A stretch of 64,000 bases of DNA from Microbacterium capsulatum (GTDB lineage Bacteria; Actinomycetota; Actinomycetes; Actinomycetales; Microbacteriaceae), in NCBI RefSeq assembly GCF_030865425.1, contig NZ_JAVFCB010000006.1, positions 62,001 through 126,000 on the forward strand, written 5' to 3'. Both the position numbers and the translations under genes were made by a program. How positions within the stretch are numbered: the first letter of the stretch is position 1; each line of letters opens with the position of its first letter. The notes below the pieces were generated by a model. That model was not told the DNA's origin and did not search any database. It was given only the letters and a program-made list of their open reading frames with translations. This document shows positions 9,568 through 11,822 of the stretch, piece by piece.

Positions 9568-10575
<1,008 letters not shown>

Positions 10576-10673: not shown

Positions 10674-10748
10674 CGACACAACGCAGGAGATTCCGGTGGC
10701 CTCGCGGTGCCCACCGCCCAGCGGGACCGCTTCTCCTGGGTTGTGTCG
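10674..10748. repeat. Hairpin element, copy 1 (left of the AbiEi-DUF559 gene)
   Basis: 75-bp imperfect palindrome. The outer arms are 17 bp (10674-10690 and 10732-10748) with one mismatch, core ACACAACGCAGGAGA. A smaller inner stem is formed by 10694-10699 and 10711-10716. It shares its arm sequence with the element at 11750-11822. It starts 99 nt after trpS and ends 36 nt past the 3' end of the AbiEi-DUF559 gene, and might also act as a transcription terminator. Confidence 0.8.
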
Positions 10749-10784
10749 TGACGTGGCAGCCGATCGCCCCGCACTGCCCGAGCG

Positions 10785-11639
10785 TCACCGTCGGCAGGCG
10801 AGTAGCCCGCGCACGGCGTCCGTCAGCACGTGGGGCTCCGTGAGGATGATGTTCGCGGTGGGGCGCACGCAGGCATATCCGCGAGCCGCAAGAGCCAGGT
10901 CCCTGCGACGGTCCTCCTCCTGCTTCTGCCACCCCGCATGATGTGCACGGCTGTCGCACTCGACGACGATCCACCCGTCCACGAGGATGTCGACCCGCCC
11001 CACCCCGTCGATCACCTTCTGCAGTTCGATGCGTCGGCCGAACTGCCGCAGCTGCAGACGGGCGAGGCTCTCCGGTCCCGATTCCGCCCTACCATCGATG
11101 AGCCGCCGCAGGGACCGGTAACGATGCGGTACGCGGGAGAAGATCTGCGCGACGTCGTCGGAATCGACCTCACCGAGGAACAGGGCGCTGTCGAGGGTCG
11201 CCACGATCTGTCGCGGCTCCTGGCAGTCGAACGACTGAACCAGCGCGCTGACGACATCGACAGTGTGCGCGTCACCGCTCTGGCTCCGCCAGTGGATGGT
11301 GGCGGTCGCCCCGTCCGCCTCCAAGCGTTTCCGCCGTGAATGCGGGGAACGGAGACGAGCGCGGTGCGGCTCCACCTGCACATGGAGCTGCCCTCGGCGA
11401 TGCACGAACACGCCCCGCGCTTCGAGCGCCGCGACGCAATCCAGCCGGCCGCCCACCCGTTGGGCTCGGAACACGACGTCGGGGATGTCACCGGACAGAT
11501 ACACGTCGCGCCGTGCGCGCCTCAGCAGCCCCAGGGCCAACGCGTCGCGGATCTGCTCCCGACTGACCCCGGACCCGCGCAGCTCCTGATAGCTGACGCA
11601 CCGGTGCGTCGGGATCCCGAATGCGTCGAACTCATCCAT
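10785..11639 (-). CDS. AbiEi-type winged-helix plus DUF559 (Vsr-like) protein, orphan
   Basis: 284 residues with two parts. Residues about 1-60 resemble the AbiEi antitoxin winged helix (SYQELRGSGVSREQIRDALALGLLRRARRDVYL). The C-terminal 110 residues resemble DUF559, a relative of the very-short-patch-repair nuclease: GVGRVDILVDGWIVVECDSRAHHAGWQKQEEDRRRDLALAARGYACVRPTA, with the Asp, Glu-x-Asp and Arg/Asp positions of a PD-(D/E)xK-like site. No AbiEii toxin gene lies beside it, so it is an orphan. The ATG at 11637-11639 was chosen because the longer frame lacks family sequence. It is flanked on both sides by matching hairpin elements. Confidence 0.75.
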   Translation of the reverse strand: MDEFDAFGIPTHRCVSYQELRGSGVSREQIRDALALGLLRRARRDVYLSGDIPDVVFRAQRVGGRLDCVAALEARGVFVHRRGQLHVQVEPHRARLRSPHSRRKRLEADGATATIHWRSQSGDAHTVDVVSALVQSFDCQEPRQIVATLDSALFLGEVDSDDVAQIFSRVPHRYRSLRRLIDGRAESGPESLARLQLRQFGRRIELQKVIDGVGRVDILVDGWIVVECDSRAHHAGWQKQEEDRRRDLALAARGYACVRPTANIILTEPHVLTDAVRGLLACRR

Positions 11640-11749
11640 CAAGGGATCGTCGCAGCGCGCGTCGGACGGGTGGGCGGCGTTCACGCAATCGGTGAGAACG
11701 TCCGCGGAGACGACGGCTGTGGAGGACCAGCTCCTCCCCCGGACCACGC

Positions 11750-11822
11750 ACACAACGCAGGAGAATGCCGGCCTAACCCCCCGGCTGATCCGGGTTCAGG
11801 CGGAGAAACTCCTGCGTTGTGT
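11750..11822. repeat. Hairpin element, copy 2 (right of the AbiEi-DUF559 gene)
   Basis: 73-bp palindrome with perfect 14-bp arms (11750-11763 and 11809-11822, ACACAACGCAGGAG and its complement) and an inner 5-bp stem (11767-11771 with 11781-11785). The arms match copy 1. It lies 110 nt upstream of the AbiEi-DUF559 start and 55 nt past the end of the serine hydrolase gene, for which it could also serve as terminator. Confidence 0.8.

Follow-up and report, generated by a model that had tools for sequence, protein, structure and literature searches.

Actinobacterial AbiEi–Vsr-like nuclease genes bracketed by matching inverted-pair elements: a probable REPIN/RAYT-like partnership

The window, a stretch of 64,000 nucleotides from Microbacterium capsulatum, contains an AbiEi-like/DUF559 (Vsr-type) nuclease gene whose neighbours are a trpS-like class I tRNA synthetase gene and a gene for a beta-lactamase-family hydrolase. 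A sequence-only reading of this DNA had placed two matching palindromic elements around the gene, and these are present: each consists of the left arm ACACAACGCAGGAG and, as its right arm, the reverse complement. The features of the locus are as follows.

9571–10575, plus strand: trpS-like class I tRNA synthetase gene, the tail-to-tail neighbour, which marks a recurring site of such units.
10676–10746, no strand assigned: downstream element, 71 bp between the outer arm ends, with arms at 10676–10689 and 10733–10746 (one mismatch).
10785–11639, minus strand: AbiEi-like/DUF559 (Vsr-type) nuclease gene, 284 aa from a likely ATG at 11639, in a frame open to 11753.
10788–11084, minus strand: Vsr/homing-endonuclease-like nuclease domain, residues 187–285 (numbering from 11642), assigned from structure and invariant residues.
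11094–11492, minus strand: middle domain, residues 51–183 (numbering from 11642), resembling the AbiEi C-terminal domain, assigned from structure and arm co-variation.
11493–11630, minus strand: winged-helix part, residues 5–50 (numbering from 11642), with an AbiEi_4 match at residues 13–49 and 6y8q aligned over residues 5–183.
11750–11822, no strand assigned: upstream element, 73 bp, with perfect arms at 11750–11763 and 11809–11822, lying 110 bp before the ATG.

In the downstream element, complementarity of the arms continues to 10666–10690/10732–10756 at 88%. Allowing up to one mismatch, the 14-bp arm has four matches in the whole 3.99-Mb genome (17 contigs; reversed control, 0), all of which are the four arms of the two gene-flanking elements, and the same search returned no further copy of the arm. 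A random placement of arms relative to DUF559 genes, the outcome that the sequence-only reading had named as counting against its proposal, was therefore not seen in the window genome, where the arm occurs only beside the gene.

The window protein matched the Pfam families AbiEi_4 (6e-5), MTES_1575 (4e-4) and DUF559 (9e-4), all under the curated cut-offs, while NCBIfam gave no match, PADLOC returned AbiEi models alone (E = 0.012 and 0.045), and a sequence comparison with solved structures gave no useful match. Across 64 aligned family members (E ≤ 0.01), MTES_1575 was matched by 64/64, DUF559 by 55/64 and AbiEi_4 by 43/64, the only other families matched being AbiEi_3_N and DUF287; a passage of PMC3710099 names MTES_1575 as the carrier of a novel Vsr REase domain. 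The predicted structure (pLDDT 94.7, pTM 0.90) contains a Vsr/EDxHD-type nuclease fold, with residues 187–285 matching 3hrl (Z 13.0), I-Bth0305I (3r3p; Z 12.4, rmsd 2.6 over 95 residues) and Vsr (1cw0; Z 11.2, rmsd 2.4 over 100 residues). Matches in a viral structure library were mostly partial, several of them named DUF559 or Vsr-like. When the N-terminal 185 residues were modelled alone, Foldseek placed AbiEi (6y8q) first (E 1.6e-6, TM 0.54) and Rv2827c third (E 5.9e-3); on the DALI scale the fit of this part to AbiEi is middling (Z 6.5, rmsd 4.8 over 161 residues), and the two-domain AbiEi fold is present at about residues 5–183 of the model. Ten positions are invariant in the 64 aligned members (E191, Q208, D218, E228, D230, H235, D244, R247, D248 and R260), and the same ten score 1.0, as two-decimal frequencies, in a 110-member set. 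Judged by its model, the window protein resembles a fusion of an AbiEi DNA binder with a Vsr/homing-type nuclease whose active-site residues are invariant.

Two known systems share parts of this architecture. Tn7 TnsA is a PD-(D/E)XK nuclease acting at element ends; the likeness here lies in the PD-(D/E)XK nuclease, with a weak structural match only (Z 7.5), and unlike Tn7 the window gene has no transposition partner genes beside it. The resemblance to the AbiE type IV toxin–antitoxin systems is in the two-domain AbiEi fold and in the kind of DNA bound, since AbiEi too binds a pair of inverted repeats, of 23 bp, and Rv2827c binds four, according to sections of PMC7319586. The window gene differs in its extra nuclease domain and in having sites that flank the gene and are dispersed; with a tRNA synthetase gene and a beta-lactamase-family hydrolase gene as its neighbours, it has no adjacent toxin gene (AbiEii, DUF1814) at the window locus and for this reason falls outside AbiE.

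Bracketing extends well beyond the window. Among 149 genomes of the genus, a protein search (E ≤ 1e-20) found homologues in 118, one to four in each, and 110 homologue loci were compared (the window's own plus 29 plus 80, taken best matches first from a longer list). When the arm was a 12-mer with no more than one mismatch, an inverted-arm pair common to both flanks was found at 58/110 loci, against 400 of 11,990 mismatched upstream/downstream combinations and 0/110 shuffles. A looser rule called a paired-arm element with one arm sequence on both flanks at 84/110 loci, a count that keeps two GC-rich doubtful calls (L192 and L252) that the Mantel, length and geometry counts exclude; there was no bracket call at the other 26. 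The looser rule was positive for 13/200 mismatched flanks, 1/300 random places in the window and 1/140 in other high-GC loci, the mismatched rate probably exceeding the random rate because some homologues share arms. A strict rule combined with equal length retained 69/110 loci, versus 4/300 mismatched flanks and 0/300 random window places. In another genus of the same family, 21/30 loci were bracketed (mismatched flanks, 9/150), as were 15/30 in a genus that belongs to the same class but to a different family (mismatched flanks, 10/150), where the remaining 15 gave no call. A profile search of 296 genomes of the phylum returned 26 loci, three of them overlapping the 110-locus set, and 18 of the 26 were bracketed. 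The window genome itself holds at least six homologues (profile search; 8 of 65 candidates scored), all six of which are bracketed under the looser rule. At four loci (L173, L177, L250 and L254) the gene-side elements stand in tandem arrays with a start-to-start period of about 130–195 bp. The earlier suggestion that gene and elements belong together thus gains from comparison, the pairing recurring with changing arms across the genus and in two other genera.

The arms themselves differ from gene to gene. The six homologues of the window genome have six unlike arms, crossed flanks being positive in 3/30 combinations, and among paralogues within one genome crossed flanks matched in 1/68 cases, whereas own flanks matched at 45/56 of these loci. 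A genome-wide repeat independent of the gene is rejected on account of these same-genome crosses together with the restriction of the window arm to the flanks of its gene. Because the site sequences differ between genes yet match on both sides of each, the pattern points to a private set of target sites for every protein. The more alike two proteins are, the more alike are their arms (Mantel rho 0.22, against a maximum of 0.109 in 1000 permutations), and the trend persists among pairs below 55% identity (rho 0.144, a value reached in 0/1000 permutations). By domain, the partial Mantel correlation was highest for the middle domain (0.188; reached in 0/300 permutations), followed by the winged helix (0.079; 8/300) and the nuclease domain (0.058; 15/300). 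Specificity had been expected in the winged helix and was hardly found there; from this co-variation, the middle domain appears to set arm specificity.

We then consider what an element is. Within loci of the genus, elements differ in length by 0 bp (139 cases), 1 bp (45) or 2 bp (5), so that 189 of 197 differences fall within 0–2 bp; none is of 3–8 bp, and the remainder are of 9 (3), 11 (1), 12 (2), 21 (1) and 22 bp (1). In the other two genera 46/52 differences are 0 or 1 bp and the rest are 3, 20, 23, 25, 30 and 30 bp, a less clean phasing because some of these (3, 25, 30 bp) are no whole turns. The 38 elements of the window family, the window's two included, measure 71–73, 80–83 or 91–94 bp, with one of 65 bp, and an independent pattern search for the CACAACGTCG family that allowed 62–92 bp returned 54 elements of 79–81 bp (52) or 91–92 bp (2). 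Sequence information in the arm runs out after about 18 bp, and the spacer shows no conservation. Spacer foldability has a mean z of −0.28 (11% under −2) compared with 0.00 (4% under −2) for neighbouring sequence (Mann–Whitney p 0.098), centred self-complementarity in the same element set is 0.332 against 0.297 in shuffled spacers, and in 52 elements of the CACAACGTCG family it is 0.326 against 0.322; there is at most a slight tendency to self-pairing. The hairpin that had been proposed as the working form is not supported: the spacer lacks conservation and clear self-complementarity, and the distance between the arms is helix-phased. Given these phased lengths and the absence of clear spacer self-complementarity, the most fitting description of an element is a pair of inverted double-strand sites, each about 18 bp long, that keep to one face of the helix. 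As a separate observation, window-type elements at L008, L018, L050 and L069 overlap CACAACTCCTGC-type elements by about 19 bp, as if nested or sharing an arm.

These properties bear on the view that the gene has nothing to do with the elements around it, which would be ordinary terminators of transcription or RNA hairpins. Both window elements fold as RNA better than 200/200 dinucleotide shuffles, whichever strand is taken (z −5.05 to −6.93), and a position downstream of genes is common among elements, as it would be among terminators. The loop, at about 40–65 nt, is nevertheless long and its spacer without clear pairing, while gene-specific arms common to both flanks and a phased length would be foreign to a terminator; the window elements yielded no terminator-like site and no Rfam match, on which grounds we reject a terminator or RNA element as their identity and regard this view as very improbable.

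A second view is that the elements are autoregulatory operators, through which an AbiEi-like protein represses its own gene by binding paired inverted repeats and perhaps forming a loop that joins the two sides; dispersed elements would then be decoys or regulon sites, and units would change by ordinary homologous recombination. AbiEi and Rv2827c both bind inverted repeats and autoregulate, as set out in sections of PMC7319586. The distance from the end of the upstream element to the start codon varies rather little (median 105 bp, IQR 96–126, n = 82, with start codons chosen by rule), and phased spacing suits cooperative binding, so that the upstream element and the phasing are explained as well by an operator as by the partnership we favour. 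Left unexplained are the matching downstream element, the tandem clusters, the dispersed copies in convergent gaps and by unrelated genes, and the retention of a nuclease domain with invariant active-site residues. We therefore hold the operator view to be unlikely, though not remotely so.

The dispersed copies were traced in three families. Exact window-type arms occur in 12/149 genomes, at up to 11 arms per genome, and include three genomes without a homologue at E ≤ 1e-20 (G006, G009 and G072). The family GCACAACTCCTGCA occurs in 9/149 genomes with up to 13 elements, and the family CACAACGTCG likewise in 9/149, with counts of 19, 10, 7, 4, 4, 4, 3, 2 and 1 (reversed control, 0), giving 1–19 copies per family and genome for these two. 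The gene is bracketed by CACAACGTCG elements in six of the nine genomes (L187, L210, L224, L235, L236 and L259), and in a seventh, G037, an element lies on the gene's upstream side only. Of the other two, G031 has a sole homologue at E ≤ 1e-20 (L201) with arms other than CACAACGTCG, and G011 has CACAACGTCG elements and no cognate bracketed gene among two of its three homologues. Separately, two CACAACGTCG elements of G011 (L414, on C11) lie about 1.05 kb apart and enclose an epimerase-like ORF (named by eye); with no DUF559 homologue inside, this pair was rejected as a homologue bracket.

The 19-copy genome, G118, was compared with its close relative G031, a contrast that represents one species pair. 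Twelve sites were queried and 11 located, and a further two (L428/L435 and L429/L433) brought the total to 13, some of which hold two elements in G118. At these orthologous sites G031 has one exact element, three with mismatched arms, one single arm and eight empty sites; in G031, where no cognate gene was found, elements are thus absent or degraded at 12 of 13 G118 sites, which gain and loss both fit. At L428 the further relative G025 is likewise empty. At L421/L462, where the empty site consists (by eye) of a stop and a start that overlap, G118 has the two split by an element with an imperfect 8-bp direct repeat. This repeat, noted by eye, is the only one in the eight empty-site comparisons, and no clear target-site duplication was seen at the other sites. 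The spacers of dispersed copies are unrelated (by eye), so recent copying is not seen, the exceptions being local tandem duplicates and perhaps two contig-end clusters in G073. The empty-site and spacer comparisons bear on the two marks of a MITE, target-site duplication and near-identical copies. One convergent gap holds two elements in G058, one in G009 and one in G016, and none in several further relatives. At L334 and L336 the same gap was observed to contain other repeats: in G007 a different palindrome, with TGACTTGCG arms and a G run, and in G006 GGCTTCGACAGGCTCAG-type repeats.

By crude gene calling, 76 elements were placed 23 in convergent, 20 in tandem and 3 in divergent gaps, with 16 in predicted ORFs and 14 unknown, and a second set of 23 comprised 10 tandem, 4 convergent and 3 divergent placements, 5 in predicted ORFs and 1 unknown; by the same crude calling, gene ends are not the sole location of dispersed elements. 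Avoidance of promoters, considered as a sign of REP-like placement, was suggested by the 76 elements but not by the 23, and was discarded. From the genomes compared, elements appear to be more numerous and more intact where the cognate gene is present.

Turning to the chromosomal position of the bracketed unit, a search with the trpS end found it in 39/58 genomes, from which 30 loci were taken. A homologue stands directly after trpS in 11 of these, always in opposite orientation, and is absent in 19. Ten of the 11 have an element in the interval from trpS to the gene (at L331 it overlaps the end of homology), and the trpS-proximal gap of the 19 loci without the unit has no element-like pair, a few pairs lying farther off in the next gene (by eye). 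In all, 49 homologue loci adjoin trpS, every one tail-to-tail, with a GNAT gene on the other side at 36, none detected at 10, and an inconsistent or trpS-side placement at 3. The distance from trpS to GNAT is 16–194 bp in eight genomes without the unit and 1176–1394 bp in six with it, so a fixed insertion site with empty alleles (trpS–unit–GNAT versus trpS–GNAT) is present. Of the 49 loci at this site, 36 are bracketed; their arms gave 30 different 12-mer calls, among which several represent a single arm read in another register and one (L192) is doubtful.

Genomes whose trpS regions are 92–93% identical may carry units with proteins only 45–50% identical, which points to replacement of units and led us to reject purely vertical drift of the arms; overall, protein identity follows trpS identity with a rho of 0.277 (permutation maximum 0.207). 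Sequence comparison thus gives the appearance of whole units being occasionally replaced on a partly vertical background. The proposal that the gene might move with its elements as a unit draws support from the occupied and empty alleles and from unlike units between similar flanks. Six flank contexts account for 75/110 loci. Carriage by phages or plasmids was rejected, with matches in 0/50,697 phage records and in 4/72,556 plasmid records, the latter at 30–36% identity over parts of the protein. Given the few flank contexts, the trpS-identity signal and the lack of a phage match, the unit is not a vigorous mobile element. The E ≤ 1e-20 search also revealed two DUF559 homologues about 17–23 kb apart and in opposite orientation in 12 genomes (G007, G018, G019, G037, G062, G080, G081, G119, G120, G129, G137 and G144), one of the two being the trpS-side copy in G007, G018 and G019.

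A fixed site for which empty alleles exist, dissimilar units between like flanks, and the presence of I-Bth0305I and Vsr among the nearest nuclease-domain structures would all be expected of a free-standing homing endonuclease that cuts the empty trpS–GNAT allele, and a few other sites, so that the bracketed unit is copied in, with specificity turning over in cycles of invasion and loss. The likeness to I-Bth0305I and Vsr extends to the invariant acidic and histidine residues. However, the window gene is free-standing between two protein genes, and the matching arms are in the elements that bracket it rather than spanning the empty site, as the 19 trpS gaps without a pair illustrate; nor would homing explain the dispersed arm copies. 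We consider homing improbable as the full account, and the label of homing endonuclease incomplete for the system.

The comparison with REP elements flanking a RAYT gene, made from the window alone, is apt, and the closer analogue is the REPIN, described in part of PMC3116915 as an inverted REP pair at fixed spacing, most often 71 or 110 bp in P. fluorescens SBW25. In both systems a gene is flanked by its cognate repeats, short sites form inverted pairs at a conserved distance around a variable spacer, copies are dispersed, tandem clusters occur, and several gene–repeat pairs share a genome. The protein differs, being here an AbiEi–Vsr nuclease fusion where the RAYT is an HUH tyrosine transposase; an HUH motif with a catalytic tyrosine (Y1 transposase) did not appear among the Pfam matches of the 64 members or in the model, which matches AbiEi and Vsr. 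The repeats differ also: the window arms contain no GTAG and the arm consensuses of the 84 loci have no constant GTAG tag, the spacer forms no clear hairpin, spacing changes by about whole turns, and the copy numbers observed are low. The system would work like REPIN–RAYT but, with no HUH/Y1 domain and no constant GTAG, is not a RAYT system. No description of a DUF559/AbiEi gene paired with its own bracketing repeats was found among the titles and abstract openings listed for open-licence PMC papers.

Together, these findings make a REPIN/RAYT-like gene–repeat partnership, built on an unrelated nuclease and with private paired sites for each protein, the reading that we favour and think reasonably probable. 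Weighing on the other side are the 26 of 110 loci with no bracket call, the 15 of 30 in the more distant genus, the elements in genomes where no cognate gene was found, the unrelated spacers, the low copy numbers and the absence of a clear target-site duplication, together with the small number of flank contexts and the lack of a phage match. Each element would be occupied by two protomers, on inverted sites of about 18 bp whose separation is fixed and in phase with the helix. The AbiEi-like part would do the binding, with the middle domain apparently setting specificity; binding of the paired arms is strongly implied by the co-variation of arm and protein and by what AbiEi proteins do, and the dimer geometry on the paired sites is putative. 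Once bound, the protein would have its Vsr-like nuclease domains positioned at the unconserved spacer, over it or close by, and the invariance of the active-site residues suggests that the nuclease may cut or nick the element. One or more site pairs would flank the gene on each side, and further copies could disperse in the chromosome. Spread or exchange of elements and of the bracketed unit would proceed through nicking or cutting of an element; that nuclease action may spread or maintain the elements is suggested by copy number, by the contrast with G031, in which no cognate gene was found, and by the exchange of units. Bracketed units would be gained, lost and exchanged for one another at a small number of fixed positions in the chromosome.

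More tentatively, and with chances that we place a little short of even, these genes may constitute an undescribed actinobacterial class of AbiEi–Vsr nucleases, each with its own bracketing and dispersible inverted-pair element. Such a nuclease would act across the phased spacer in the manner of two DNA-bound half-sites placing two nuclease domains, would spread or maintain the elements and exchange units, and its recognition code and sites would turn over together.

Orphan 'DUF559/AbiEi' proteins of Actinobacteria thereby gain a predicted DNA target that is legible beside each gene, and the family offers a large natural catalogue of protein–site pairs in which specificity differs between relatives of 40–50% identity, so that binding, spacing and cleavage become directly testable. 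Should the partnership be real, the REPIN/RAYT way of life would have arisen independently on a Vsr-type nuclease, and the presence of a set of intergenic repeats in these genomes would be accounted for.
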